Shown here piece by piece: positions 35,281 to 50,524 of a DNA stretch of 50,524 bases. The notes beneath the pieces are model-generated. The model did not search any database, was not told the DNA's origin, and was given only the letters and a program-made list of their open reading frames with translations. Source of the stretch: Gammaproteobacteria bacterium (GTDB taxonomy: Bacteria > Pseudomonadota > Gammaproteobacteria > Thiotrichales > Thiotrichaceae); assembly GCA_018822845.1 (NCBI GenBank), contig JAHJJD010000099.1:1-50524 (forward strand). The letters are read 5' to 3'. The first letter of the stretch is position 1. Every line of letters starts with the position of its first letter. The position numbers were made by a program, and so were the translations under genes.

Positions 35281-35875
35281 GCTTGCGTAGCAGGTGCTTG
35301 ACGTGCACCTTCACCGTACCTTCGGCAATGCCCAACTCCCGCGCCACCAGTTTGTTGCTTTTGCCTGCCGCCACCAGTTCGAGAATACGCTGTTCCTGAT
35401 CGGTCAAACCCGCTTCCGAGGCGCTTGTCGGGTGTGATGCCTCGTGACGCATGGTGTGGGCCAGCAGGCTGATCAAGCGCTCGGTCAGGGTAATACGGCC
35501 CGCCGCTGCTTCCGATAATTTGTTTACCAGATCTTCCGGCTCCATCTCCTTGAGCAGGTAGCCATCCGCGCCTGAGCGAAGCGCCGCCACCAAATCTTCC
35601 GCCTGGTCAGAAACCGTCAGCATCACCACCCGTGCATCGGAACCGGACGCCTTGACCACTTTCAGGACTTCAATGCCACTCATATCTTTCATGTTGAGAT
35701 CCAGCAGGATCATGTCCGGGTCAAGCTCCGCAGCCATCTCGATGCCCTGCTGGCCGGAGGATGCCTCACCGACGATGGTGAAGCCGGGGATCATGTTGAC
35801 CAGATAGCGCACCCCTTTGCGGAATAGCGGGTGGTCATCAACAATCAGCAGGCGTTGGGGTTCTTCATGCGGCAT
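35225..35875 (-). CDS. narL: Nitrate/nitrite response regulator NarL
   Basis: A 216-residue NarL/FixJ-type response regulator. The receiver domain has the acidic pair in IVDDHPLF, the phosphorylated Asp in ILLDLNMKDMSG (about residue 59) and the Lys in YLLKEMEPEDL. The C-terminal LuxR-type helix-turn-helix is LTDQEQRILELVAAGKSNK with ARELGIAEGTVKVHVKHLL. It overlaps the end of narX by 11 bases, forming a narXL unit. Its likely targets are the TACYNMT heptamers upstream of narK and mog. Confidence 0.95.
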   Translation of the reverse strand: MPHEEPQRLLIVDDHPLFRKGVRYLVNMIPGFTIVGEASSGQQGIEMAAELDPDMILLDLNMKDMSGIEVLKVVKASGSDARVVMLTVSDQAEDLVAALRSGADGYLLKEMEPEDLVNKLSEAAAGRITLTERLISLLAHTMRHEASHPTSASEAGLTDQEQRILELVAAGKSNKLVARELGIAEGTVKVHVKHLLRKLNLRSRVEAAVWYVEQHK

Positions 35876-37745
35876 GGGGGATCCTTGTTTCAGAGGGTTG
35901 AGGGGGCAGGCTCGGGGTGAAAGTCATCTGCACGCGGGTTCCGCCGCCCTCGCGGGGCAGGTGTTCAAGGCTGCCATGCAGGGCGCGCGACCGCTCGCTC
36001 ATGATGGCGATGCCGTAATGGTGCAAAGTGGCATTTTTCAGGATACCGACGCCATCATCGTCAATCAGCAGTTCGGCTGCCCCGTCTGCCCTGGCATGCA
36101 GCCTGACCCAGGCGCGGCTGGCGCGGGCGTGCTTGAGGACGTTTGACAAACCTTCGCGCGCGATTTGTAGCAGGTGGATTTCTTCATTGGGCGTCAGGCG
36201 GAGATTGTCAAGGCTGGCTTCCAGTTCAATGGGCAGTTTGCCGCGTTCGGCAAACTCGGCGGTGGTTTGTGCCAGCGCCATGCCGAAATCAGCATCTTCC
36301 ATCCGCAAGCGGAAAGTGGAAAGCAGTTCGCGTAATTGCTGGTAGGAACTGTTGAGGCCATCGCGCAGTTCTTCCAGTGCTTCCATGACTTCGGCCACAT
36401 CGTCCGGTTCCTGGATGGCGTTGCGCAGGCGGCTGACCTGGATTTTCATGTAGGCCAGGGACTGGGCCAGTGAATCATGCAACTCGCGGGCGATAACGGC
36501 GCGTTCTTCCAGCAGGGAAACGCGGCGGTGCTGCTCGATACGTTGTTCCGAGGCGATGGTCACGCCGATATGGTGTGACAGGGCTTCCAGCAATTGTACT
36601 TGCCAGGTTTCGGCCTGGGTATCCGGTGGCACATCAACCGCCAGCAGACCATAACGTTTTTCCGCATCAGCCAGTGGCAGGCGCAATACCTGCCGTCCGT
36701 TGGGCAGGCTATCCATGCGGATGGCGTAGGGGTTGTGGCATTCCGTACAGTTGCTGGCGTGCTGGCACAAGGGGCTGGCATTATTGGGGGCGGTGGTGGC
36801 GATGACCTTCCCGCGTGCTTCATTGTCCCCTTTAAGGCAAATCGTGCCAATGCCCAGGCCGAGGGTGGTTTCGGCGTCTTTCAACACGTTCTGGAACACC
36901 TCCCGGTCAGGTGAAATGCCATGCAGCCGGGTGATGGAGCGGTAAAGCAGGTCCAGTGAACGGTTGCTGCGGGTAAGTTCGGCGGTTTTCTGTTCAACAC
37001 GGGCTTCAAGGTCTCGGTACAGTTTGAACAGGTCTTCCGCCATCAGGTCAAAGGCGCGCCCCAATTGACCGATTTCATCTTCACCTGTCAACCCGGAACG
37101 TACCGTCAGCTTCCCCCGGCGAATCTCATCGGTCAGGCTTAACAGATCCTTGAGTGGGTTGACCAGAATACTGCTGATCAGGTAGATGGAAAGGATCACC
37201 ATGAGGATGGTGCCGATTACCGCGCCCCCCAGAATGACCCGCAGGACAAAGATTTTGGCTTCGGTGGCTTCTTCAATCTGTTTGACCAGATCGTTGATGT
37301 GGGCGACAAACAAGGGGATTTCCACCAGCAGTTCCCTCCCCGTTGCGGCGGTGGGGTTACCCAGCCGGGGCAATACCCGCCGTCGCCAGTCAGCTTCCAC
37401 CTGCCGGTAAACCCGCTTGAGGGGCGTGGTTTCATCTTCGGGCAATACTGACAGGATAGAGCCTGCCCGCAGGTCACGTTCGAACTGTGCAATCGCCAGT
37501 TGCAACTGCTCATGGCTTTCAGGCGTATCCGCCCGTATGTTCTGCTGATACAGGGAAGCCATCCTCCAGCTCTGCATCCTCAGGCTACCGGCCACGTTAA
37601 TGGCTTCACCATTACCCTGGGTGGTTTCCGCCACCATCCAGGAAACCGACATGCCGACGATCGCCAGCACCGTGATGGCGGCGATCATGCCGCCTAAACG
37701 CAACAACAGCGAGTTTTGCAGTTTTTCCCACAATAAACGCTTCAC
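35865..37745 (-). CDS. narX: Nitrate/nitrite sensor histidine kinase NarX
   Basis: NarX senses nitrate in the periplasm and phosphorylates NarL. The 626-residue protein starts with GTG at 37745. It has two membrane segments (about 13-38 and 165-190), with the nitrate-binding P-box GEAINVAGSLRMQSWRM at 46-62 (R56 is the expected ligand). A HAMP domain follows, then a GAF-like central module with a cysteine cluster (CQHASNCTECH). The HisKA_3 region holds ARELHDSLAQSLAYMK (H423), and the HATPase end has DDGVGI. It is divergent from narK, and together they flank the NarL-site region. Confidence 0.95.
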   Translation of the reverse strand: MKRLLWEKLQNSLLLRLGGMIAAITVLAIVGMSVSWMVAETTQGNGEAINVAGSLRMQSWRMASLYQQNIRADTPESHEQLQLAIAQFERDLRAGSILSVLPEDETTPLKRVYRQVEADWRRRVLPRLGNPTAATGRELLVEIPLFVAHINDLVKQIEEATEAKIFVLRVILGGAVIGTILMVILSIYLISSILVNPLKDLLSLTDEIRRGKLTVRSGLTGEDEIGQLGRAFDLMAEDLFKLYRDLEARVEQKTAELTRSNRSLDLLYRSITRLHGISPDREVFQNVLKDAETTLGLGIGTICLKGDNEARGKVIATTAPNNASPLCQHASNCTECHNPYAIRMDSLPNGRQVLRLPLADAEKRYGLLAVDVPPDTQAETWQVQLLEALSHHIGVTIASEQRIEQHRRVSLLEERAVIARELHDSLAQSLAYMKIQVSRLRNAIQEPDDVAEVMEALEELRDGLNSSYQQLRELLSTFRLRMEDADFGMALAQTTAEFAERGKLPIELEASLDNLRLTPNEEIHLLQIAREGLSNVLKHARASRAWVRLHARADGAAELLIDDDGVGILKNATLHHYGIAIMSERSRALHGSLEHLPREGGGTRVQMTFTPSLPPQPSETRIPHAA

Positions 37746-37858
37746 TTGCTTATACCCTCCACGGTAAACGGAAACAGCATGCTCCAGAATGCAGGCTCAT
37801 ATCATCATTATGCCATTCCGGATTATAGGGATACCCCAGTTCAGGGTGTTACAGGTTA

Positions 37859-37968
37859 ATAGGTATACCACCTCTCACTGCCCCATTCTGCCCCCACAAA
37901 ACAGTCACAAAATTAAAATCAGTAAAAACAATAAGATGGCAAATACTACTTGTACCACTAAAGTGGTA
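37859..37968. promoter_or_regulatory. Cluster of candidate NarL sites between narX and narK
   Basis: A perfect 7-2-7 site TACCACT-AA-AGTGGTA lies at 37953-37968, about 100 bases before the narK1 start. Another full heptamer, TACTACT, sits two bases upstream (37944-37950). A minus-strand heptamer TACCTAT lies at 37859-37865. All fit the known NarL/NarP consensus TACYNMT. No clear FNR box was found. The rest of the 322-base gap (37746-38067) is AT-rich promoter-like DNA. Confidence 0.75.
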
Positions 37969-38067
37969 TTTGTGCTGTTTCTCGGGCAATTCCACCCTAT
38001 GGAAACAAGGTCATTCAAGGCGTAAAACAAGCGGTGAAAACAAATCAGGGTTTCCCCGAGGTGAGTT

Positions 38068-39333
38068 ATGGCAACGCAACGTTACAAGGCATGGTCGGTC
38101 GTCATCATGAGCACACTGGCCTTCACGGTCTGCTTCATGATCTGGATGATGTTCGCCGTTATCGGCATCCCCATCAAGGAACTACTGGGTTTGAATGAAA
38201 CCCAGTTTGGCATTCTGGTCGCGACACCCGTCCTGACCGGCTCATTGACCCGCCTGCCACTCGGTATGTGGACGGACAAATTTGGTGGGCGTCTGGTGTT
38301 TTTTCTCCTGATGCTGTCCACTGTCATACCCATCTGGTTGATTTCCTATGCCACCGAGTTCTGGCAATTCCTGGTTATCGGTTTGTTCGTCGGGGTTGCC
38401 GGTGGTTCCTTCACGGTCGGGATTGCCTATTGCGCCCGCTGGTTCCCGAAAGAGCAACAAGGTACGGCAATGGGCATTTTTGGCGCAGGGAATACCGGTG
38501 CCGCTGTCACTAAACTGCTTGCCCCCATCATCGTGGTCGGCTATGGCTGGACGATGGTGCCAAAAGTCTATGCCGTCCTGATGCTGGTAACTGCCATCCT
38601 GTTCTGGTTTTTCACCTTCACTGATACAAACCACAAGGTTGGCAAGTCCGTCACCATCAGCGAGCAACTGGCGACCCTCAAGGATCCTAAAGTGTGGCGC
38701 TACAGCCAGTACTATTCCATCGTGTTTGGCGGTTATGTCGCGCTGGCGCTGTGGATGACCAAATATTATGTCAGTGAATACGGCTTTGACCTGAAGACAG
38801 CCGCTTTCCTGGCCGCCGCTTTCAGTATCCCCGGCGGGGTGTTGCGGGCTATTGGCGGCTGGTTCTCGGACAAGTTCGGCGCGCATACCATTACATGGTG
38901 GGTATTGTGGGTTTCATTGACCTGCCTGTTCATCCTTTCTTATCCGCAAAGTGACATCACCATCCAGACTGTCAATGGCCCGAACACCTTCCATGTCGGC
39001 CTTAGCCCAACCACCTTCACCATCCTGCTGTTCACGCTGGGGGTGGTGTTCGCCATCGGCAAGGCATCGGTCTTCAAGTACATCTCGGATGATTACCCAC
39101 ACAACATCGGTGTCGTTTCCGGGATTGTCGGGCTGGCTGGCGGGCTGGGCGGCTTCTTCATGCCGATCATGTTCGGTGCGCTGGTTGACCTGACCGGTGT
39201 CCGCTCCTCCGCCTTCATGCTGATGTTCGGCGTGGTGTGGGTGTCACTGATGTGGATGTACTTCGCTGAAGTGCGCCCGATGGACAAGGAACGTGAAGGC
39301 AAACGCCCCCAACTGGCTGATGTAATGGAGTAA
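38068..39333 (+). CDS. narK1: Nitrate transporter NarK1 (nitrate/proton symporter type)
   Basis: A major-facilitator nitrate transporter of 421 residues with about 12 membrane helices. NarK1-type proteins import nitrate with protons and start respiration before nitrite builds up. Typical segments are TRLPLGMWTDKFGGR (the MFS loop 2-3 motif), the nitrate signature GNTGAA VTKL region (IFGAGNTGAAVTK) and the second signature GLAGGLGGFFMPI. A GAGG site precedes the start. It is the first gene of the nar operon. Confidence 0.92.
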   Translation: MATQRYKAWSVVIMSTLAFTVCFMIWMMFAVIGIPIKELLGLNETQFGILVATPVLTGSLTRLPLGMWTDKFGGRLVFFLLMLSTVIPIWLISYATEFWQFLVIGLFVGVAGGSFTVGIAYCARWFPKEQQGTAMGIFGAGNTGAAVTKLLAPIIVVGYGWTMVPKVYAVLMLVTAILFWFFTFTDTNHKVGKSVTISEQLATLKDPKVWRYSQYYSIVFGGYVALALWMTKYYVSEYGFDLKTAAFLAAAFSIPGGVLRAIGGWFSDKFGAHTITWWVLWVSLTCLFILSYPQSDITIQTVNGPNTFHVGLSPTTFTILLFTLGVVFAIGKASVFKYISDDYPHNIGVVSGIVGLAGGLGGFFMPIMFGALVDLTGVRSSAFMLMFGVVWVSLMWMYFAEVRPMDKEREGKRPQLADVME

Positions 39334-39381
39334 CAACAATGGATCGCACGCTGTTAACCAATTTTCAACGAGGAGAGCAAC

Positions 39382-40989
39382 ATGGCTAATATTAAAACCT
39401 GGGACGTGGAAAACACCACGTTCTGGGAAACAACCGGCAAGTCGATTGCCAACCGCAACCTGTGGATTTCGATCCCTAGCCTGCTGATGGGCTTCGCCGT
39501 CTGGCTGATGTGGGGGATCATTACAGTACAGATGTCCAATCTGGGCTTTCCGTTCAAGGATGCGGAATTGTTCACGCTGACGGCGATTGCCGGTTTGGCA
39601 GGCGCGACCCTGCGGATTCCGGCCTCTTTCTTCATCCGTCTGGCGGGTGGGCGCAACACCATCTTCCTGACCACCGCGCTGCTGATGATCCCGGCGATTG
39701 GGACAGGGATTGCCTTGCAGAATAAGGAAACCCCGCTGCTGACTTTCCAGATTCTGGCGTTCCTGTCCGGGATTGGTGGCGGCAACTTTGCCTGTTCCAT
39801 GTCCAATATCAGCACCTTTTTCCCCAAGCGTTTGCAGGGTACGGCACTCGGTTTGAACGCAGGCTTGGGTAACTTTGGTGTGACCACCATGCAAATCCTC
39901 ATCCCGCTGGTGATGACCATGGGTGTGTTTGGTGCGCTGGGGGGTGACTCCATGCCACTGGTAAAAGATTCCGGCTGGATTCTAGGCAAGATTCTGGCAG
40001 GTACTGAAACCTGGGTTCAGAACGCGGGCTTTGTGTGGCTGGTGTTCCTGATCCCGCTGGCCTTCCTTGGTTTCTTCGGCATGAACAACCTGCTGCCGAT
40101 TTCCCCGGCTATTGGCGGCACGATTGCAGCCTTCATCAAAATTTTGTGGCTGTATGGCCTGGCGTTCCTCACCACGGCGATTGGCTTGTATTTGTACCTG
40201 CCTGCGCCAACGGGTTTGGGTTTGCTGAATATGTGGGTAGCCCTGCCGCTGATCATCGTGGCAACCCTGGGGATCATGAAAGTGACTGCCTTTGGCGAAA
40301 TGAAAGTAGGCATCAACAAGCAATTTGCCATTTTCAACAACAAGCACACCTGGTCCATGACCGTGCTGTATGTGCTGACCTTCGGTTCTTTCATCGGTTT
40401 TTCCATGGCACTGCCACTGGCTATCAAGGTCATTTTTGGCAATACCCATGTGTTTGATGCGGCAACACAGGCATGGGTACATACAAAAAACCCGAATGGG
40501 CCGTCAGCCCTGACCTATGCATGGATTGGCCCATTTGTAGGTGCGTTGATCCGCCCGGTCGGTGGCTGGATTTCTGACAAAGTGGGCGGTTCCATTGTGA
40601 CCCAGATCATTTCGGTGGTGATGGTGGCGGCTTCCGCCTATGCCGGTTACATCATGATGCAGGCTTACCAGTCCGCTACCCCGGAAGTGTTCTTCCAGCC
40701 ATTCCTGTGGACATTCGTGGTGCTGTTCGCGGCATCAGGTTTGGGTAATGGCTCCACCTTCCGCACTGTCGGGGTCATCTTCGACCGCCTGCAAGCCGGG
40801 CCGGTGCTGGGCTGGACTTCTGCTGTGGCTGCTTACGGTGCTTTCATCGCACCTGTAGTTATCGGGGCGCAAGTCAAGGCCGGGACACCTGAGAACGCAA
40901 TGTATGGCTTTGCGATTTTCTATGCACTATGCCTGATATTGAACTGGTGGTTCTACCTGCGTAGTGGCAGCGAGATCAAGAACCCGTAA
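39382..40989 (+). CDS. narK2: Nitrate/nitrite transporter NarK2 (antiporter type)
   Basis: A second, longer NarK of 535 residues, of the type that exchanges nitrate for nitrite. It has RIPASFFIRLAGGRN in loop 2-3, the signature GIGGGNFACSMSNISTFFP (about residues 131-149) and GNGSTFRTVGVIF as second signature. A stretch of extra sequence between helices 5 and 7 accounts for the added length. A separate narK1 followed by narK2 is common in denitrifiers, where some are fused into one protein; here they are separate with a 48-base gap. AGGAG before ATG 39382 gives a good start. Confidence 0.93.
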   Translation: MANIKTWDVENTTFWETTGKSIANRNLWISIPSLLMGFAVWLMWGIITVQMSNLGFPFKDAELFTLTAIAGLAGATLRIPASFFIRLAGGRNTIFLTTALLMIPAIGTGIALQNKETPLLTFQILAFLSGIGGGNFACSMSNISTFFPKRLQGTALGLNAGLGNFGVTTMQILIPLVMTMGVFGALGGDSMPLVKDSGWILGKILAGTETWVQNAGFVWLVFLIPLAFLGFFGMNNLLPISPAIGGTIAAFIKILWLYGLAFLTTAIGLYLYLPAPTGLGLLNMWVALPLIIVATLGIMKVTAFGEMKVGINKQFAIFNNKHTWSMTVLYVLTFGSFIGFSMALPLAIKVIFGNTHVFDAATQAWVHTKNPNGPSALTYAWIGPFVGALIRPVGGWISDKVGGSIVTQIISVVMVAASAYAGYIMMQAYQSATPEVFFQPFLWTFVVLFAASGLGNGSTFRTVGVIFDRLQAGPVLGWTSAVAAYGAFIAPVVIGAQVKAGTPENAMYGFAIFYALCLILNWWFYLRSGSEIKNP

Positions 40990-40998
40990 ACCGAAGAA

Positions 40999-41035
40999 CC
41001 CTCACCCCAACCCCTCTCCCACAAGGGCGAGGGGC
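40999..41035. repeat. REP-like palindromic repeat between narK2 and the dsrC-like gene
   Basis: A copy of CCCTCACCCC followed by CCCCTCTCCC, then ACAAGGGCGAGGGG, forming a GC-rich hairpin. It matches one unit of the double repeat at 31037-31137. It lies inside the nar operon just before the ribosome binding site AAGGAG of the next gene, so it may divide the operon mRNA into parts of different stability. Confidence 0.7.
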
Positions 41036-41053
41036 GAAGACAAGGAGATAAAC

Positions 41054-41446
41054 ATGGCAATTCAACAGTATGACGACAATCTGCAAACCAACCCTTACGC
41101 GATTTATACCCTGGCGTTGGAAGTGGATGGTAAAACCATCCTCACCGACCAGGAAGGTTACATCCAGAACATGGATGACTGGAGCGAAGGTTTCGTGGAA
41201 GCCCTCGCCGAACGTGAAGGCTTGGTGCTGACCGACGAGCATTGGGAAATCATCGAATTCCTGCGTAACTACCATCAGGAACACGGGGTGCAAGCGCCGG
41301 TGCGCGACATGCTCAAGCACTTCAGGAAAGCGTGGGGTGAAGAGTTCGCCACCAACCATTACTTACACGAAATATTCCCCAAGGGCGGCCCGCAAAAGCA
41401 GGGCAATCGCTTGGCGGGTATCCGTAGAACCAAAGGGGAGCATTGA
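41054..41446 (+). CDS. DsrC/TusE-family protein lacking both functional cysteines
   Basis: A 130-residue protein of the DsrC/TusE family, seen from LTDQEGYIQNMDDWSEGFVEALA, LTDEHWEIIEFLRNYH and the C-terminal arm HEIFPKGGPQKQGNRLAGI. DsrC proteins carry sulfur on a C-terminal Cys and a second Cys ten residues earlier; TusE keeps the C-terminal one. Here the arm ends RRTKGEH and the other position reads GNRLAG, so neither Cys exists, and the whole protein has none. It cannot act as a sulfur carrier. It resembles the cysteine-less group called RspA in the DsrC literature, as I recall it. Its place between narK2 and narG suggests a regulatory or assembly role in nitrate respiration. Confidence 0.88.
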   Translation: MAIQQYDDNLQTNPYAIYTLALEVDGKTILTDQEGYIQNMDDWSEGFVEALAEREGLVLTDEHWEIIEFLRNYHQEHGVQAPVRDMLKHFRKAWGEEFATNHYLHEIFPKGGPQKQGNRLAGIRRTKGEH

Positions 41447-41449
41447 TCC

Positions 41450-44400
41450 ATGAGCCATTTTTTAGACCGCTTGATGTATTTCACCCGCCCGAAGCAAAGC
41501 TTCTCCAACGGCCATGGGGTCATGACCATTGAAGACCGCAAATGGGAGGATTCTTACCGCCATCGCTGGCAGCATGACAAGGTGGTGCGTTCCACCCATG
41601 GCGTCAACTGTACTGGTGGTTGTTCCTGGAAGATTTTCGTCAAAAACGGGCTGGTTGCATTTGAAATGCAGCAAACCGACTACCCGCGTACCCGCGAAGA
41701 CCTGCCTAACCACGAACCACGCGGTTGCCAGCGCGGCGCATCATTCTCATGGTATTTGTATAGCCCTCACCGTATCAAATACCCGCTGATCCGGGGGCGC
41801 TTGCTTGACCTGTACCGCGCTGAACGCAGCAGCGGCAAAGACCCGGTGGAAGCGTGGGCAGCCATCCAGGCAGATGAAAGCAAACGCCAGAAATACGTGG
41901 CGGTGCGCGGTTTGGGCGGTTTCGTGCGGGCAACGTGGCAGGAAGTGACTGAAATCACCGCTGCCGCCAACGTCCACACCATCAAGAAATGGGGGCCAGA
42001 CCGGATATATGGCTTCTCCCCTATTCCCGCAATGTCGATGATTTCCTACGCCGCAGGCTCCCGGTATCTGTCCCTCATTGGTGGGGCCTGCGGTTCTTTC
42101 TATGACTGGTACTGCGACCTGCCAGCGGCTTCCCCACAGACCTGGGGCGAACAGACTGACGTGCCAGAATCAGCCGACTGGTACAACTCCACCTACATCA
42201 TCATTGCGGGTGCCAACCTGCCGATGACCCGTACCCCGGATGCCCACTTCGCCTTTGAAGTGCGCTACAAGGGCGCGAAAGTGGTATCAATGGCACCGGA
42301 TTACGCTGAGTACGTCAAAGCCGCCGATTTATGGATGCCAGTACGCCAAGGCACGGATGCCGCCGCGTTTCTGGCAATGGGTCATGTCGCGCTGAAAGAG
42401 TTCTACATCAACAGCCAGGATCCGTACTTCCAGGAATATGCCCGCACCTACACCGACCTGCCAATGCAGGTGATGCTGCGCCAGCATGACAAGAAAACCT
42501 TTGTCACTGACCGCCTGCTGCGTGCTTCCGACTTTGACGGTGCTTTGGGTGAAACCAATAACCCGGACTGGAAAACCATCGTTTATGACGAAAAAGGCGG
42601 TGCGTTTGTTGCCCCTAACGGTTCCATCGGTTTCCGCTGGGGTGAGGAAGGCAAGTGGAATCTGTTGCCGAAAAATGCCGCTGACCAAAGCGACATCCAG
42701 GCCGAACTGACCTGCATCGACAGCAAGGACGACATCGTTTCGGTAGGTTTCCCACACTTCAATCATGATGAAGCTGACCTGCTGTTCCGCAATGTGCCAG
42801 TACGCAAGGTGAAGCTGGCGAATGGTGAAACCGCGCTGGTGGCTTCGGTATTCGACCTGCAAATTGCCCAGTACGGCATTGACCGTGGCCTGGGGGGCGG
42901 CAATGTTGCCAAAGACTACAGTGATGCCAGTGTGGCTTACACCCCGGCATGGGCGGCAAAAGTGACTGGCGTGAAAGCGGCGGACATTGAGCGCACCGGG
43001 CGCGAGTTTGCCTACAATGCTTCCAAAACCAAGGGTAAATCCATGGTCATCATGGGCGCGGCAATCAACCACTGGTACCACAACGACCTTGCTTACCGTT
43101 CGATCATGAACCTGCTGCACATGTGCGGTTGCGTTGGGCAATCCGGCGGTGGTTGGGCGCATTACGTGGGTCAGGAAAAGCTGCGTCCGCAAGCAGGCTG
43201 GGCACCGATTGCCTTCGCACTGGACTGGCAGCGCCCGCCACGTCACATGAATTCCACCTCGTACTGGTATTTCCACACTGACCAATGGCGTTACGAAACC
43301 CTCGACGCTGACAGCCTGTTGACACCTGCCGGGAAAGCCAAGAACAAGGGCTACTCGCTGGCAGATTACAACGTGGCTGCCTCGCGTATGGGCTGGTTGC
43401 CCACCGCGCCGCACTGGAACATGAACCCGCTGGAGTTGGTGGCTGAGGCTGAAAAAGCCGGGGCAACCGATGAAGCCAGCATCGGCAAGCACATTGTCGG
43501 CAAGCTGCAAGACGGCTCGCTGGATGTAGCCTTCGCCGACGTGGACAACCCGGTCAACTGGCCGCGCAACCTGTTCGTATGGCGTGCGAACCTGATCGGT
43601 ACTTCCGCCAAAGGGCATGAATACTTCCTCAAGCACCTGCTGGGTGCGCAAAACGGCGTGCTGCAAGAAAGCGGTGCGGGGCGCGACAACAAGGAAGTGA
43701 AGTGGCACGAAGATGCACCCATCGGCAAACTCGATTTGATGGTGGACATCAACTTCCGCCTCAATTCTACAGGTGCTTACTCCGACATTATCCTACCGAC
43801 TGCGACGTGGTATGAGAAAAACGACCTCAACACCACCGATATGCACCCCTTCATCCACCCACTGGCAGAAGCGGTGTCTCCGGGTTGGGAATCACAGTCT
43901 GACTGGCAGATTTTCAAGTCCATCGCCAAGACTTTCTCGCCACTGGCAGAAAAGCACCTCGGTACCCGTAAGGACATCGTAGCCCTGCCAATGCAGCACG
44001 ATTCCGCGATGGAACTGGCGCAGCCGTTCGGGCAAGTGGTGGACTGGAAGCGTGATGGCGTTGCCCCGATTCCGGGCAAGACCATGCCAATCCTCAAGGT
44101 AGTCGAGCGTAACTTCGGTGACACTTACCGCAAGTACATCGCCCTAGGGCCGTTGATGGTCAAGCTCGGCAACAATATCAAGGGGGTGGACTGGAACACC
44201 GAAGCGGAATACGAAGAGCTGAAGAAATGCAACTACACGGTGAAAGAACCGGGTGTGTCCTTCGGAATGCCATCACTGGAAGAAGACATCTATGTGTGTG
44301 ACTCCGTGATGCGTATGGCACCGGAAACCAACGGTGAAGTGGCGCACAAAGCGTGGTCAGCGATGTCGAAAAAGACCGGCATTGACCACCACCACCTGTA

Positions 44401-45208
44401 CGCCGGGCGGCACGAGGACAAGATCACTTTCCGCGACATCGTGGCACAGCCGCGCAAGATCATCACCGCACCAACATGGTCGGGGATTGAGTCTGAAACC
44501 GTGTCCTATACCGCTGGCTACACCAATATCCACGAACACATCCCGTTCCGCACCCTGACCGGACGGGCACATTTCTACCAGGATCATGAGTGGATGCTGG
44601 ATTTCGGTGAAGGTTTCTGCACCTACAAGCCGATGGTGGATTTGGGTGAACTCAAAGGTTTGCCAGCCGCTGTCCTCAACAAGCCGCACCTGAGCCTGAA
44701 CTGGATTACCCCGCATTCCAAATGGGGCATCCATTCCAGCTACCAGGACAACCTGCGGATGCTGACCCTGTTCCGGGGCGGGCCTTACGTGTGGGTGGCG
44801 GAAGACGATGCCAAAACCATTGGGCTGGAAGACAACGACTGGGTGGAAGCGGTCAACCACAACGGTGCGACCGTGGCACGGGTGATTGTTTCACAGCGTA
44901 TCCCGCGCGGCATGGCGATGATGTACCACGCGCAGGAGAAGAACATCAACGTACCGGGTTCGCCGTCCACCGGGAAGCGTGGCGGTATCCTGAACTCCGT
45001 GACCCGCGTGCTGGTCAAGCCGACCAATATGATCGGCGGTTATGCACAGTTGGCGTACAGCTTCAACTATTACGGCACGGTCGGTTGCCAACGCGACACG
45101 ATGGTGGCCTTGCACAAGATCGCGGACAAGGATGTGGACTGGCTGGAACGCCCGCTCACCCCCGCCCGCGAAGCGCAACGCAACCCGAACGGCATCGGCC
45201 CCAAGTAA
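41450..45208 (+). CDS. narG: Respiratory nitrate reductase, alpha subunit
   Basis: NarG reduces nitrate to nitrite at a bis-MGD molybdenum site facing the cytoplasm. The 1252-residue length is standard. The FS0 cluster ligands appear as HGVNCTGGCSWK (His and two Cys) and GCQRG, and the molybdenum-ligand Asp region is NSTYIIIAGANLPMTRTPDAH. The N-terminal segment SHFLDRLMYFTRPKQSFSNGH has the cytoplasmic NarG form, without a twin-arginine signal. It begins three bases after the dsrC-like stop and is followed by narH. Together with NarH and NarI it couples quinol oxidation to proton motive force. Confidence 0.98.
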   Translation: MSHFLDRLMYFTRPKQSFSNGHGVMTIEDRKWEDSYRHRWQHDKVVRSTHGVNCTGGCSWKIFVKNGLVAFEMQQTDYPRTREDLPNHEPRGCQRGASFSWYLYSPHRIKYPLIRGRLLDLYRAERSSGKDPVEAWAAIQADESKRQKYVAVRGLGGFVRATWQEVTEITAAANVHTIKKWGPDRIYGFSPIPAMSMISYAAGSRYLSLIGGACGSFYDWYCDLPAASPQTWGEQTDVPESADWYNSTYIIIAGANLPMTRTPDAHFAFEVRYKGAKVVSMAPDYAEYVKAADLWMPVRQGTDAAAFLAMGHVALKEFYINSQDPYFQEYARTYTDLPMQVMLRQHDKKTFVTDRLLRASDFDGALGETNNPDWKTIVYDEKGGAFVAPNGSIGFRWGEEGKWNLLPKNAADQSDIQAELTCIDSKDDIVSVGFPHFNHDEADLLFRNVPVRKVKLANGETALVASVFDLQIAQYGIDRGLGGGNVAKDYSDASVAYTPAWAAKVTGVKAADIERTGREFAYNASKTKGKSMVIMGAAINHWYHNDLAYRSIMNLLHMCGCVGQSGGGWAHYVGQEKLRPQAGWAPIAFALDWQRPPRHMNSTSYWYFHTDQWRYETLDADSLLTPAGKAKNKGYSLADYNVAASRMGWLPTAPHWNMNPLELVAEAEKAGATDEASIGKHIVGKLQDGSLDVAFADVDNPVNWPRNLFVWRANLIGTSAKGHEYFLKHLLGAQNGVLQESGAGRDNKEVKWHEDAPIGKLDLMVDINFRLNSTGAYSDIILPTATWYEKNDLNTTDMHPFIHPLAEAVSPGWESQSDWQIFKSIAKTFSPLAEKHLGTRKDIVALPMQHDSAMELAQPFGQVVDWKRDGVAPIPGKTMPILKVVERNFGDTYRKYIALGPLMVKLGNNIKGVDWNTEAEYEELKKCNYTVKEPGVSFGMPSLEEDIYVCDSVMRMAPETNGEVAHKAWSAMSKKTGIDHHHLYAGRHEDKITFRDIVAQPRKIITAPTWSGIESETVSYTAGYTNIHEHIPFRTLTGRAHFYQDHEWMLDFGEGFCTYKPMVDLGELKGLPAAVLNKPHLSLNWITPHSKWGIHSSYQDNLRMLTLFRGGPYVWVAEDDAKTIGLEDNDWVEAVNHNGATVARVIVSQRIPRGMAMMYHAQEKNINVPGSPSTGKRGGILNSVTRVLVKPTNMIGGYAQLAYSFNYYGTVGCQRDTMVALHKIADKDVDWLERPLTPAREAQRNPNGIGPK

Positions 45209-45218
45209 GGAGATTTAC

Positions 45219-46769
45219 ATGAAAGTCAGAGCACAATTCGCATTCGTCTTCAACCTGGACAAGTGCATCGGTTGCCACACCTGTTCCGTCACCTGCAAGA
45301 ACGTGTGGACGAACCGCAAGGGCGTGGAATATGCGTGGTTCAACAACGTCGAGTCCAAACCGGGCATCGGCTACCCCAAGAACTGGGCAGACCAAAACCA
45401 GTGGAAAGGCGGCTGGGAACTCAACGGCGGCAAGCTGGAGCTGAAGTCCGGCGACCGCAAGTCCAAATTGCTGAACATTTTCGCCAACCCGGATATGCCG
45501 GAAATTGACGATTACTACGAGCCGTTCACCTACAACTACGCGCATTTGCAGAATGCGCCGTTGCTGGAAGCGACCCCGACTGCCCGCCCGCAATCGCAGA
45601 TTACGGGTGAGACGATGGAGAAAATCCACTGGGGGCCAAACTGGGAAGATGACCTTGCAGGCGAATTCAGCAAGCGCAGCAAAGACGTGGACATGGATGG
45701 CATCCAGAAAGAGATGTACAGCCAGTTCGAGAACACCTTCCACATGTACTTGCCGCGCATCTGCAACCACTGCCTGAACCCGGCGTGTGTGGCGGCTTGC
45801 CCATCCGGTTCGATCTACAAGCGCGAGGAAGATGGCATCGTATTGGTAGACCAAGACAAGTGCCGGGGCTGGCGGATGTGCATTTCCTCCTGCCCGTACA
45901 AAAAGGTGTTCTACAACTGGGAATCCGGCAAGGCGGAAAAGTGCATCGGCTGCTACCCACGGGTGGAATCCGGGATGCCGACCGTGTGTTCCGAATCCTG
46001 CGTCGGGCGCATCCGTTACAACGGCATCATGCTGTATGACGCAGACAAGATCGAAACGCTGGCAAGCACCCAGAACGAGCAGGACTTGTACGAAGCCCAG
46101 TGCAAGATTTTCCTCGACCCCAATGACCCCAAAGTGATCGAGGCAGCACGGGCGGAAGGCATCAACGAAGACTGGATCATTGCGGCGCAAAAATCACCCA
46201 TTTACAAGATGGCGATTGACTGGAAGATTGCGTTCCCGATGCACCCTGAATTCCGCACCCTGCCAATGGTGTGGTATGTGCCGCCACTCTCTCCAGTGCA
46301 ATCGCAGATTGACCAAGGCAATTTGCCGGTCGGCCCTGACGGTGCAATCCCGTTGGCGGGCACGATGCGTACCCCGATCCAGTACCTTGCCAACCTGCTG
46401 ACCGCAGGCAAGACCGCCCCGGTCGAAAGTGCCCTGAACCGCCTGATTGCGATGCGCAGTTACCAGCGTTCTGTGCATGTGGAAGGCGTGGCTGATACCC
46501 GCGCCCTCGACAAGGCAGGTATCACCGAAGACCAGGCCAAGGAAATGTACCGTTACCTGGCGATTGCCAACTACGAAGACCGTTTCGTCATCCCCACCGG
46601 GCATGAGGAAGTGCGGCTGGAAGACTTCTACGCCTTCCAGGGGCAGAACTGCTTCACCTTCGGCAACGACTCTTCCGCAGGCATTTCCCAGACTTCCCTG
46701 TTCCCGGAACGGCGCAAGGAAACGGTGGAAGTCTGCGTTATCCAACCTTTGTCCAAGTTGAAGCCATAG
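45219..46769 (+). CDS. narH: Respiratory nitrate reductase, beta (iron-sulfur) subunit
   Basis: NarH passes electrons through four iron-sulfur clusters from NarI to NarG. The 516-residue protein starts at ATG 45219 (AAGGAG upstream). The ligands are visible as CIGCHTCSVTCKNVW near residue 16, CNHCLNPACVAACPSG, CRGWRMCISSCPYKK (where Trp replaces one Cys, giving the 3Fe-4S cluster) and KCIGCYPRVESG with CSESCVGR. No signal peptide; it stays on the cytoplasmic face. Confidence 0.98.
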   Translation: MKVRAQFAFVFNLDKCIGCHTCSVTCKNVWTNRKGVEYAWFNNVESKPGIGYPKNWADQNQWKGGWELNGGKLELKSGDRKSKLLNIFANPDMPEIDDYYEPFTYNYAHLQNAPLLEATPTARPQSQITGETMEKIHWGPNWEDDLAGEFSKRSKDVDMDGIQKEMYSQFENTFHMYLPRICNHCLNPACVAACPSGSIYKREEDGIVLVDQDKCRGWRMCISSCPYKKVFYNWESGKAEKCIGCYPRVESGMPTVCSESCVGRIRYNGIMLYDADKIETLASTQNEQDLYEAQCKIFLDPNDPKVIEAARAEGINEDWIIAAQKSPIYKMAIDWKIAFPMHPEFRTLPMVWYVPPLSPVQSQIDQGNLPVGPDGAIPLAGTMRTPIQYLANLLTAGKTAPVESALNRLIAMRSYQRSVHVEGVADTRALDKAGITEDQAKEMYRYLAIANYEDRFVIPTGHEEVRLEDFYAFQGQNCFTFGNDSSAGISQTSLFPERRKETVEVCVIQPLSKLKP

Positions 46770-46779
46770 GAGGTACACC

Positions 46780-47298
46780 ATGTTTTACCGTTTACTCGCA
46801 AGGTTGCTGGATTACCCCACCGCTGAATTGCAGGCTGCTTTACCCGAAATCTGGGCGCAACTGGACAACTTGCCGGAAGGGGAACGCAAGGTGGTGGGCA
46901 ATTTCCTTGCCCACCTGCACTGGGAGGACATGACCGAATGGCAAGCGTTGTACGTGCGCACTTTCGACATGGTTCCTGACAATGCCCTGCACCTGACCCA
47001 TCACCTGTTTGGGGATGACAAGAACCGGGGGCCAGCGCTGATCGACCTGAGCGAATTCTACAAGGAATACGGTCTGGAACTGGCGGCGAACGATTCCAAC
47101 GAATTGCCGGACTTCCTGCCGCTGGTGCTGGAATTCGCCGACCAGTTGAGCCGGGTGGAGGCCAAGATGTTCCTGAGCCAATGGGCCAAGGTGTTCAGCC
47201 AGCTTGCCCTGAACCTGGAGAAGGTGGAAAGCCCCTACGCGCCGCTGATCCGCCTGATTGAACAACGCAGCCAGCTTGTCACTGCCAAAGCGGCCTGA
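46780..47298 (+). CDS. narJ: Nitrate reductase molybdenum-cofactor assembly chaperone NarJ
   Basis: NarJ binds the NarG N-terminus and holds the enzyme until cofactor and haem are in place. The 172-residue protein shows the family's YRLLARLLDYPTAELQAALPE start and the core LYVRTFDMVPDNALHLTHHL(FGDD) with RGPALIDL. It is shorter than E. coli NarJ (236 residues), missing mainly the C-terminal extension, a size found in other denitrifiers. AGGAGG precedes the start, ten bases after narH. Confidence 0.95.
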   Translation: MFYRLLARLLDYPTAELQAALPEIWAQLDNLPEGERKVVGNFLAHLHWEDMTEWQALYVRTFDMVPDNALHLTHHLFGDDKNRGPALIDLSEFYKEYGLELAANDSNELPDFLPLVLEFADQLSRVEAKMFLSQWAKVFSQLALNLEKVESPYAPLIRLIEQRSQLVTAKAA

Positions 47299-47313
47299 AA
47301 GGAGGAATGACCC

Positions 47314-48006
47314 ATGTTTGATTTACATACATTTGTGTACGGGGTGTTCCCCTACATCGCCACCATCGTGTTCCTGCTGGGAAGCTGGATACGGTTTGAC
47401 CATGAGCAATACACCTGGAAAAGTGATTCCAGCCAGTTGCTGTCCAAAAAGAATATGCGACTGATGAGCAACCTGTTCCACGTCGGTATTCTGGGGATTT
47501 TCTTCGGGCATGTGGCGGGGATGGTGATGCCGCATGGCTTGTGGGTCGGGTTGGGCATTTCTGACCTTGCGCACCAGTGGATTGCGATCCTGGCAGGTTT
47601 GGCGTTTGGTGGTGCAGTGGTTGCCGGTGGTGCCATGTTGTGGCATCGGCGCATGTTCAACCCGCGTGTCCGCGCTGCGAGCCGCTGGATGGACATCAAT
47701 ATCCTGGGTTGGCTGGTGATCACTGCCTGCTTTGGCTTGCTCACTGTCCCGTTTTCCATCGGTCATGCCGTGAAAGGTGACGTTAGCACCATGCTGCTGT
47801 TGGGTGAGTGGATCCGCAGCATATTGATCCTGCAACCGGAACCGGAACTGATCCGCAACGTGGACACGGTTTACAAGGTGCATGTGTTCTTCGGGATGTC
47901 AGTGTTCCTGTTCTTCCCGTTCACCCGGTTGGTTCACGTATGGAGTGCCCCCGTCCCATACCTGTTCCGTGCTTATCAGGTGGTGCGTACCAAACGTCAC
48001 CTGTGA
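47314..48006 (+). CDS. narI: Respiratory nitrate reductase, gamma (cytochrome b) subunit
   Basis: NarI anchors the complex and oxidises quinol at the periplasmic side through two b haems. The 230-residue protein has five membrane helices. Haem-ligand histidines are seen in NLFHVGILGIFFGHVAGMV (helix 2) and in VHVFFGMSVFLFFPFTRLVHVWS (helix 5; shown in part as HVFFGMSVF and FTRLVHVWS). AGGAGG precedes its start. It ends the nar structural operon, and a terminator follows about 70 bases later. Confidence 0.97.
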   Translation: MFDLHTFVYGVFPYIATIVFLLGSWIRFDHEQYTWKSDSSQLLSKKNMRLMSNLFHVGILGIFFGHVAGMVMPHGLWVGLGISDLAHQWIAILAGLAFGGAVVAGGAMLWHRRMFNPRVRAASRWMDINILGWLVITACFGLLTVPFSIGHAVKGDVSTMLLLGEWIRSILILQPEPELIRNVDTVYKVHVFFGMSVFLFFPFTRLVHVWSAPVPYLFRAYQVVRTKRHL

Positions 48007-48076
48007 GTAATTAAAAGAAAAGTCTGGTTAGAGACCCTCCGAAACTGACTGGATGTAAGCCGCTAGTCAGGGGTAT

Positions 48077-48103
48077 GGGCGGTAGCAATACCGCCCGTTT
48101 TTT
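48077..48103 (+). terminator. Rho-independent terminator between narI and moeA
   Basis: Stem GGGCGGTA (48077-48084) / TACCGCCC (48089-48096), loop GCAA, followed by G and six T. It should end most nar transcription; moeA starts only 14 bases later, so read-through or a promoter within 48007-48076 must serve moeA. Confidence 0.85.
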
Positions 48104-48116
48104 CAGGGAGAGAGAT

Positions 48117-49370
48117 ATGCATGCACTGAATACACACCCCCCCACCAAGACTGGGCCACACATGCTCAGTGTAGAGGAAGCGCAAGCCTGTATCCTGCAA
48201 GCCATATCGCCTGTCAGTACTCATGAACGTATCAGTTTGAGGCAAGGGCTGGGGCGTATCCTGGCAACGCCGGTCATGGCACGGCTGGATGTTCCCTCAC
48301 ACCGTAACTCTGCCATGGATGGTTATGCTTTCCGCCATATTGATACCGATATTCACAAGGCATTCCATGTGGCGGGTGTGTCAATGGCAGGGCATCCATT
48401 CTACGGCACGCTGGATATTGGCCAATGTGTCCGTATCATGACGGGTGCAGTGGTTCCTGCTGATGCCGATACCGTGGTGATGCAGGAGCATGTATCGCAG
48501 GAAGGGGACATCATTACCCTGCAATGGATTCCACCACCCGGTGCTAATGTCCGCCATCCGGGTGAAGACTTGTGTGCCGGGGATGTGGTTCTGCCTGCCG
48601 GACGCAAGCTGAATGCTGCTGACCTTGGGCTACTGGCGTCCCAGGGTATCAGCGAGGTCGATGTATTACGCCACCCACGTATTGCTTTCTTTTCCACCGG
48701 TGATGAACTCAAGGGCATCGGTGAATCCCTGCAACCGGGTGATGTATATGACAGTAACCGTTATACCTTGTTCGGGATGCTGGGCAAGCTGGATGTTGAC
48801 ATCCTGGATCTGGGAGTTATCCCTGACCGGCAGGAAGCGGTGGAACAGGCTTTTGTTCAGGCCAGCCAGCTTGCTGATGTGGTGATTACCAGTGGTGGTG
48901 CCTCCGTGGGGGATGCCGATTATGTGACGGATACCTTGCGCAAGACTGGTACGGTGGATTTCTGGAAAATTGCCGTCAAACCGGGCAAACCGCTGGCATT
49001 CGGCAAACTCAATGACCGCTGCCTGTTCTTTGGTTTGCCCGGTAATCCGGTATCGGTGATGGCAACCTTCCTGCTGTTTGCCCGTCCTGCCATCCTGAAG
49101 CTGCGCGGGGATGGAGTGACTAAACTCCCTGAATATCGGGCTATGTGCGATACGCCTTTGCAAAAAGCACCGGGCAGAAAGGATTACCAGCGAGGTGTTT
49201 GCCATCTGGATGAAGAAGGCCAATGGCATGTCCGCAGTACAGGGATGCAGGGTTCGCATATCCTGCGTTCCATGAGTGCGGCCAACTGTTTTATCGTTTT
49301 GCCGCTACTGGCAGGTGATGTAAAAGCGGGTGAAGCCGTCAATATCATTCCATTCCACGAATTGCTCTGA
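48117..49370 (+). CDS. moeA: Molybdopterin molybdenumtransferase MoeA
   Basis: MoeA inserts molybdate into adenylated molybdopterin, the step after Mog. The 417-residue protein starts at ATG 48117 after GGGAG. It contains PSHRNSAMDGYAF near residue 62, GAVVPADADTVVMQEH, the STGDEL segment, DSNRYTLFGML, the TSGGASVGDADYV motif and the LPGNPVSVMATFLLF segment of the MogA-like domain, followed by the small C-terminal domain. An in-frame upstream ATG at 48075 would start inside the terminator and is rejected. It is followed by moaA after 10 bases. Confidence 0.96.
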   Translation: MHALNTHPPTKTGPHMLSVEEAQACILQAISPVSTHERISLRQGLGRILATPVMARLDVPSHRNSAMDGYAFRHIDTDIHKAFHVAGVSMAGHPFYGTLDIGQCVRIMTGAVVPADADTVVMQEHVSQEGDIITLQWIPPPGANVRHPGEDLCAGDVVLPAGRKLNAADLGLLASQGISEVDVLRHPRIAFFSTGDELKGIGESLQPGDVYDSNRYTLFGMLGKLDVDILDLGVIPDRQEAVEQAFVQASQLADVVITSGGASVGDADYVTDTLRKTGTVDFWKIAVKPGKPLAFGKLNDRCLFFGLPGNPVSVMATFLLFARPAILKLRGDGVTKLPEYRAMCDTPLQKAPGRKDYQRGVCHLDEEGQWHVRSTGMQGSHILRSMSAANCFIVLPLLAGDVKAGEAVNIIPFHELL

Positions 49371-49380
49371 GGTTGTTGAT

Positions 49381-50367
49381 ATGGATAAAGGATTGGTTGA
49401 CCCTTTCGGGCGCACCATCAGTTATTTGCGGGTTTCCGTCACTGACCGTTGCGATTTGCGCTGCTTCTACTGTATGCCGGAAGCTTTCAACAACTACGAA
49501 GTCCCGGATAACTGGTTGACGTTTGCTGAAATCGAACGGGTGGTGAATGCCTTTTCTGCCCTGGGAGTCAGCCGGGTACGCTTGACGGGTGGGGAGCCAC
49601 TCGTGCGGCAAGGTGTGCCTGAATTGGCAGGGCGATTGTCTGCCATAGCAGGTATTAATGACCTGTCACTCAGTACCAATGCCAACCGTCTGGCACGGGA
49701 GGCGCAAGCGCTGAAACAGGCTGGTGTAAAACGCCTTAATGTCAGTCTGGATAGTCTGCAAGCCAAGCGTTTCCAGCTGATCAGCAAAGGCAAACTGGAA
49801 AAAGTCATGGCAGGATTGATGGCGGCCAGGGAGGCAGGCTTTCGGCCTATCAAGATCAATATGGTTGTCATGCAGGGGATCAACGATGATGAAGTGCTGG
49901 ATATGGTGGAATTTTGCCTGACCCACGGTTTTACCCTGCGTTTTATCGAAACCATGCCCGTAGGGCATACCGGGCGTAATGCCTGCGATTCCCACTATAT
50001 CAGCCTGCAAACCGTCAAGGCACAGCTGGCGGAACACTACAACCTGTTACCTTCCATTGTTGATGGCGGTGGCCCCGCGCAGTATTTCACTATTGGGGAC
50101 ACTGGCCTGAAAATCGGTTTCATCACGCCCATTTCCCAGCATTTTTGCGCCACTTGCAACCGGGTCAGGCTTGGCGTGGATGGGCGGCTCTACCTGTGCC
50201 TGGGGCATGAGAACAGTGTGGCGCTGCGCCCATTGCTACGCGCCGGTATCAGTGACGAAGCCCTGCAAATGACCCTGCGCAAGGCGCTGTGGCTCAAACC
50301 ACGGGAACACACCTTTAATGACTGTAATACACAGGTTTTGCGGTTCATGTCCATGACGGGAGGCTGA
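49381..50367 (+). CDS. moaA: GTP 3',8-cyclase MoaA
   Basis: MoaA is a radical-SAM enzyme that, with MoaC, turns GTP into cyclic pyranopterin phosphate, the first step of molybdenum-cofactor synthesis. The 328-residue protein starts at ATG 49381 after GAGG. The N-terminal cluster is CDLRCFYCMP (CxxxCxxC), SAM is held by LTGGEPLVR, and the second cluster is visible as CATCNRVRLGVDGRLYLCLG. The usual C-terminal GG is present (MTGG). moaC, moaD and moaE are not in the window. The stop is one base before the next start. Confidence 0.97.
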   Translation: MDKGLVDPFGRTISYLRVSVTDRCDLRCFYCMPEAFNNYEVPDNWLTFAEIERVVNAFSALGVSRVRLTGGEPLVRQGVPELAGRLSAIAGINDLSLSTNANRLAREAQALKQAGVKRLNVSLDSLQAKRFQLISKGKLEKVMAGLMAAREAGFRPIKINMVVMQGINDDEVLDMVEFCLTHGFTLRFIETMPVGHTGRNACDSHYISLQTVKAQLAEHYNLLPSIVDGGGPAQYFTIGDTGLKIGFITPISQHFCATCNRVRLGVDGRLYLCLGHENSVALRPLLRAGISDEALQMTLRKALWLKPREHTFNDCNTQVLRFMSMTGG

Positions 50368-50368
50368 A

Positions 50369-50524
50369 GTGCCAGACAAGTCTTTGCTCGAACTGATCTG
50401 CCCCGCAGGCAGCCTGCCCGCCCTCAAGGCTGCGGTAGACCACGGCGCGGACGGGGTTTACCTCGGCCTCAGGGACAACACCAACGCACGTAATTTCAGC
50501 GGCCTGAATTTCGACGCCAAGGCG
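50369..50524 (+). CDS. ubiU: Ubiquinone-synthesis protein UbiU, U32 peptidase family (5' part only)
   Basis: The frame opens with GTG at 50369, one base after the moaA stop, and runs off the window after 52 codons. The sequence LLELICPAGSLPALKAAV followed by GADGVYLGL and NTNARNFSGLNF matches the start of E. coli UbiU (YhbU) closely. UbiU, with UbiV and UbiT, carries out oxygen-independent hydroxylation in ubiquinone synthesis. Its place next to nitrate-respiration genes fits a need for quinone without oxygen. UbiV is the main alternative but its start differs. Confidence 0.85.
   Translation, partial: MPDKSLLELICPAGSLPALKAAVDHGADGVYLGLRDNTNARNFSGLNFDAKA

Follow-up and report, generated by a model that had tools for sequence, protein, structure and literature searches.

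A DsrC-like protein without arm cysteines, encoded directly ahead of narG, belongs to a discrete subfamily almost confined to dsrA-bearing genomes

Among the DsrC/TusE proteins, TusE requires its last cysteine. A cysteine-less class of the DsrC superfamily reportedly received the name RspA in the 2014 review of Venceslau et al., and its members are said to have been proposed as DNA-binding regulators. For DsrC of the reverse-Dsr pathway in Allochromatium vinosum (PDB 1yx3), PMC3397948 states that sulfur is bound solely at Cys111. Here we describe a gene of this family at 41054..41446 (+ strand) of a 50,524-nt stretch of gammaproteobacterial DNA (Thiotrichaceae; source genome G000); all coordinates refer to this whole stretch, called the window. 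Its intact product of 130 residues contains no cysteine at all. The gene lies between narK2 and narG and ends 3 bases 5' of narG, which confirms the original prediction made from the letters of the window.

The protein matches PF04358 at 112 bits and thus belongs to the DsrC fold, and it keeps a C-terminal arm of the same register as DsrC (codons 109-130, PKGGPQKQGNRLAGIRRTKGEH, 41378..41443, + strand). Within this arm, the CysB position of DsrC is occupied by Asn118 (AAT codon, 41405..41407, +), and Glu129, the penultimate residue (GAG codon, 41438..41440, +), stands where DsrC has its persulfide-carrying CysA. From this it follows that the protein neither carries a persulfide nor forms an arm disulfide; likewise, a protein without Cys111 should not carry sulfur, since in A. 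vinosum sulfur sits only on this residue. Compared with A. vinosum DsrC, the protein and its relatives described below further have one extra glycine in FPKGGP and an N-terminal extension. In the protein of the window, the peptide QTNPYA stands ahead of the first strand (codons 11-16, 41084..41101, +). Their genes mostly have nar or nas neighbors and not a dsr locus; the gene in the window is encoded in a nar operon, away from dsrAB and dsrEFH. TusE matches the same DsrC/TusE family models, but glutamate replaces its last, penultimate cysteine in our protein, which scores 85.1 bits against the TusE equivalog, under the cut-off of 191. With RspA, it has in common the DsrC fold, an arm without cysteine and an occurrence in dsrA-bearing organisms, and it fits that class as reportedly defined, a DsrC-superfamily protein without the conserved cysteines. 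The published RspA could be this subfamily, a different cysteine-less type with the tail SKQGLKVAGLPATNRKGGY, or both. A protein of the latter type is encoded in the source genome as well (contig C121, L053:9406-9783), divergent from dsrA and with a Cas6 gene and a TauD-family gene as neighbors.

A profile built from 11 members was run against 370 class genomes, each at least 90% complete. Twenty-four of these, including the source, scored above 180 bits, the lowest at 182.4 and the next protein at only 113.5, a gap that leaves no continuum with other members of the family. In a sample of 299 genomes of the phylum, three exceeded 190 bits (source included), all from the same class, and the next score was 122.7. 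The arm reads PQKQGNR[LVIF]AG----GE[HV], free of cysteine, in all 24 carriers, some of which have an internal cysteine. In an additional contig scan, candidates had to contain QKQGNRLA or N[HR]Y[LM]H[EK][IL]FP; 80 of 324 confirmed were kept, and tails were read for 79 of them (L126 excepted). Biased by this choice of peptides, the scan is no measure of arm constancy, for which the profile searches serve. One matching locus, L097, stems from a record titled Rhodospirillales. Asparagine at CysB and glutamate at CysA were each found in 106/106 aligned rows with the spacing preserved, where selection of the rows by QG[NH]R[LVFIM]AG conditions on N or H, and thus partly on the asparagine, but not on E; a cysteine somewhere outside the arm positions is present in 18 of the 106. 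The loss of both cysteines that had been noticed in the single protein is hence fixed, and no homologue read kept an arm cysteine. A tree of 131 rows separates the 106 of the subfamily from all others by a branch of length 1.4, supported at 100/95; columns are few and long branches meet, and the placement within DsrC and the inner order are weak. With 20 canonical DsrC rows the arm shares K115, Q116, A121, G122 and G128.

At the genome level, dsrA is the single tested feature shared by carriers in all contexts. Scored by TIGR02064, it exceeds the cut-off in 23 of the 24 carriers and in 123 of the 370 class genomes (Fisher p 4e-11; G000 among the 370), although this and the following co-occurrence tests take no account of shared ancestry. 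In G255, the 24th carrier, dsrA is present as two pieces that score 204 and 189 bits. All 20 further genomes, i.e., 17 carriers and three non-carriers from the genus of the source, have dsrA over the cut-off, as have 44 of the 50 genomes behind the contig-scan matches, with pieces of 187-307 bits in four more. The narG cut-off is passed in 11/24 carriers and 65/370 genomes (p 8e-4). Among narG-positive genomes, the subfamily occurs in 11 of 29 with dsrA and in none of 36 without (p 4e-5; G255 counted as dsrA-positive), and among dsrA-positive ones in 11/29 with narG and 13/95 without (p 0.007). Thirteen of the 24 carriers lack narG over the cut-off, and 54 of the 65 narG-positive class genomes lack the subfamily, as do the narG-positive G038 and G043 from other genera of the same family; nar is neither necessary nor sufficient for the subfamily. 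The Dsr machinery is a likelier candidate for the constant partner than NarG. The link between sulfur and nitrate is real at the genome level, and it is wider than nitrate respiration. The original prediction had proposed a regulatory or docking role connecting sulfur oxidation with nitrate respiration. A link of sulfur oxidation to nitrate reduction is well founded, as the cysteine loss is fixed, the gene is conserved beside nar genes and carriers are almost all dsrA-positive; a specific tie to respiration does not hold with these narG counts and with a subfamily that extends to nas/nirB clusters, to dsr operons and to fusions with a transthyretin-like domain.

Genomic contexts were assigned by tblastn and hidden Markov model (HMM) matches. 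Nine of the 24 carriers have the gene in a nar operon, seven in an assimilatory-type nas/nirB/kinase context, seven as a transthyretin-like fusion and one elsewhere. In some betaproteobacteria, a member adjoins dsrN inside the dsr operon; six of the 80 contig-scan loci have it beside dsrN with dsrP upstream, in one locus it lies about 1.9 kb from dsrA, and G613 resembles this arrangement when read by eye. Neighbor matches among the 80 loci are on the same strand in 131/131 cases for nar contexts and 13/13 for nas contexts, most nar and nas loci have a molybdenum enzyme nearby, and six loci are classed by a PpiC-type isomerase. All this would suit an accessory factor of nitrate reductase, that is, an assembly, cofactor or protective partner of bis-molybdopterin guanine dinucleotide enzymes (NarG, NasA) where the cytoplasm is rich in sulfide. 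We nevertheless regard such a role as rather improbable. No nitrate reductase was seen beside the dsr-operon copies and fusions, more than half of the carriers lack narG over the cut-off, narG does without the gene in the 36 dsrA-negative genomes and in G038 and G043, and the protein is nearly constant ahead of a NarGH type of only 57-69% identity to that of the window.

The N-terminus varies with context. Of 55 nar rows, 49 have NPxA ahead of the first strand, as do seven of eight rows assigned manually to an isomerase type, two of which (L100 and L104) have no PpiC match. YxxM occurs in 12/12 fusion rows and in 10 of 15 nas rows, the remaining five having NPxA. Neither motif was found in the seven dsr-operon rows or in the 19 readable of 21 canonical DsrC rows. 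This distribution also tracks the tree, on which the nar label changes 13 times, compared with 42 times when labels are shuffled; linkage to nar is thus largely kept within clades. In the fusions, a transthyretin-like sandwich domain is joined to the cysteine-less DsrC domain (L050:4788-5426, L173:7830-8468 and others), and some of these genomes have a CBS-domain gene nearby. At L048:998-5104, L130, L132, L134 and L178, nirB is followed by a NasA-like molybdoenzyme and a fused iron–sulfur/DmsC-like membrane subunit, to our knowledge an unusual arrangement. No close member was seen on plasmids (15 matches, all below 60% identity, TusE where annotated) or in phages (four matches, below 60%), and none of 47 pattern matches on viral contigs was confirmed.

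For the family of the source organism, 63 genomes were searched and 17 homologue neighborhoods read. The order narK1-narK2-gene-narG recurs at 13 loci, spread over G040 and 11 genomes from the genus (12 in all); in G058, a transporter of only 31% identity occupies the narK2 slot. Of 16 genomes from the genus, including the source, 12 have narG over the cut-off, and in all 12 the gene lies directly 5' of a narG. No subfamily member was found in the narG-negative G048, G050 and G061 of the genus; G055, also narG-negative, has a 73% copy directly 5' of a NasA-like enzyme. A second copy in G058 lies downstream of narI and has a divergent 5' end, and the second narG of this genome (C38:6706-10401) has no cysteine-less DsrC neighbor among the matches listed. 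In G062, an additional 71% copy follows a nirB-nirD-molybdoenzyme cluster; its two nar operons (L036, L038), with NarG 97% and 58% identical to that of the window, are each preceded by a nearly identical cysteine-less DsrC gene.

Codon comparison across ten orthologous loci gave ratios of nonsynonymous to synonymous divergence (dN/dS) of 0.016-0.091, and the gene is under strong purifying selection. This bears on whether it is merely an ordinary TusE/DsrC sulfur carrier that was misread, or a decaying relic. The family score is plainly DsrC/TusE, and the copies of G052 and G053 (L051:5034-5330, L052:5018-5314), both of the genus, have in common an in-frame deletion of 31 residues, by which the middle is lost and both ends stay intact. 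Such an explanation is nonetheless extremely improbable in view of the selection, the lack of both arm cysteines in every member read, and the presence elsewhere in the source genome of a canonical dsrC (on C121 with dsrA) and a one-cysteine TusE-like gene.

Two types of NarG occur behind the gene, with 96-97% or 57-59% identity to that of the window, and the protein hardly changes between them. At seven loci, L036-L042, dS against the window is 0.25-0.39 for the dsrC-like gene and 1.3-1.6 for narK1, and at six of the seven the NarG that comes next is only 58-59% identical. L036, with the NarG type of the window, has equally low dS for narG and narH (0.49, 0.37), and L043-L045, L051 and L052 are intermediate. 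Low dS of the gene together with a differing NarG type thus indicates that the operon body was swapped and the gene retained in several species; alternatively, the low dS could reflect codon bias. The same values could be explained if the linkage were selfish or accidental, the gene being a recombination anchor that hitch-hikes with the nar genes. We consider this very unlikely, as purifying selection on the protein is strong, L046 has the opposite pattern (dS 1.27 for the dsrC-like gene, 0.75 for narK1), and the few label changes on the tree leave the linkage mostly clade-bound.

Sequence, fold model, replacements, operon linkage, near-restriction to dsrA genomes and purifying selection are all established. 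As to function, we favor, with somewhat less than even confidence, a catalytically dead DsrC look-alike that is made with nitrate reductase and acts on the Dsr system. The arm is constant over nar, nas, dsr and fusion contexts, and because arm and Dsr system are shared while operon and N-terminus vary, we infer that the arm contacts a protein of the Dsr system. The protein would be co-produced with nitrate reductase from the nar mRNA, and its near-invariant arm may dock in the pocket for the DsrC arm on DsrAB, DsrL, DsrMK or DsrEFH. Glu129, we speculate, might mimic a CysA made negative by a persulfide or sulfonate group. Docking could then adjust the flow of sulfur electrons at times of nitrate reductase synthesis. 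A second contact, specific to the context, may come from the variable N-terminal peptide, which is NPxA in nar contexts and YxxM in fusions and most nas contexts, whereby the operon would decide when, and the N-terminus perhaps where, the protein acts. That the subfamily as a whole consists of dead DsrC mimics, with glutamate for the charged CysA, which serve as a switch or adapter coupling Dsr to nitrate reduction and choose a second partner by N-terminal peptide or fused domain, is a more doubtful proposal.

Several points weigh against an action on the Dsr system. The gene is absent from 100 of the 123 dsrA-positive genomes, and dsrA is therefore close to necessary yet not sufficient. Among the 50 genomes behind the contig-scan matches, one has only a 77-bit dsrA piece at a contig end, and the metagenome-assembled genome of L114 has none. 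Shared ancestry may also enter the co-occurrence tests. Furthermore, 21 positions are fixed otherwise than in canonical DsrC, ten of them within the arm, and the pocket may thus be another one. In A. vinosum, the Cys111Ser exchange in DsrC strongly reduced DsrEFH binding (PMC3397948); hence, DsrEFH may not accept a cysteine-less arm, which leaves DsrAB, DsrL or DsrMK. The subfamily is also less acidic than canonical DsrC and has a basic tail. This would suit an RspA-like transcription regulator, a cysteine-independent DsrC-fold protein that would bind DNA and tune nar, nas or dsr genes, which we judge unlikely but to be taken seriously.

In the window, a NarX-like sensor kinase (35865..37745, −) is divergent from the narK1-type transporter (38068..39333, +), followed by the narK2-type transporter (39382..40989, +), both with orthologues. 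Behind the dsrC-like gene come narG for the nitrate reductase alpha subunit (41450..45208, +; TIGR01580, 1878.8 bits), narH (45219..46769, +; start set at MKVRAQF), narJ (46780..47298, +) and narI (47314..48006, +); all except narG were named by sequence resemblance. A purine-rich stretch, AAGGGGAG (41433..41440, +), within the 3' end of the dsrC-like gene may be the ribosome-binding site of narG. FNR-like sites with up to two mismatches gave no signal over the whole window (26 found, 22.7 expected), a promoter scan of 37500-42000 gave one promoter-like site for 3.3 expected, and no inverted repeats of at least 10 spaced within 40 bases were found in 36000-50524. Directly 5' of the gene lies a GC-rich hairpin, CCCCTCTCCC..AGGGCGAGGGG (41004-41040), with a weak folding z of -1.9. 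Translated stretches like LTPTPLPQGARG precede the gene in several relatives, in the manner of a dispersed repeat.

The review of Venceslau et al. 2014 is cited in PMC7787665 and PMC5516251. Riftia and Thiodiazotropha symbionts express several DsrC copies, among which the accessible parts of PMC7787665 and PMC13137333 do not distinguish a cysteine-less type. Within the partly accessible literature on DsrC/TusE, RspA, nitrate reductase, Thiothrix and A. vinosum paralogues, we found no cysteine-less DsrC in nar operons, which is no proof of absence in print, and no paper using RspA in the DsrC sense. Cysteine-less DsrC as such is reportedly already described; the nar-linked subfamily is new, unless the 2014 review contains it. 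Sediments, vent symbioses and wastewater are settings in which sulfide-driven nitrate reduction matters. For annotation, tusE or dsrC calls in nar and nas clusters of Dsr-type sulfur oxidisers should not be read as sulfur carriers. The subfamily offers a small, conserved and deletable protein at the point where both pathways join, together with a hypothesis that concerns a single residue, glutamate in place of CysA.
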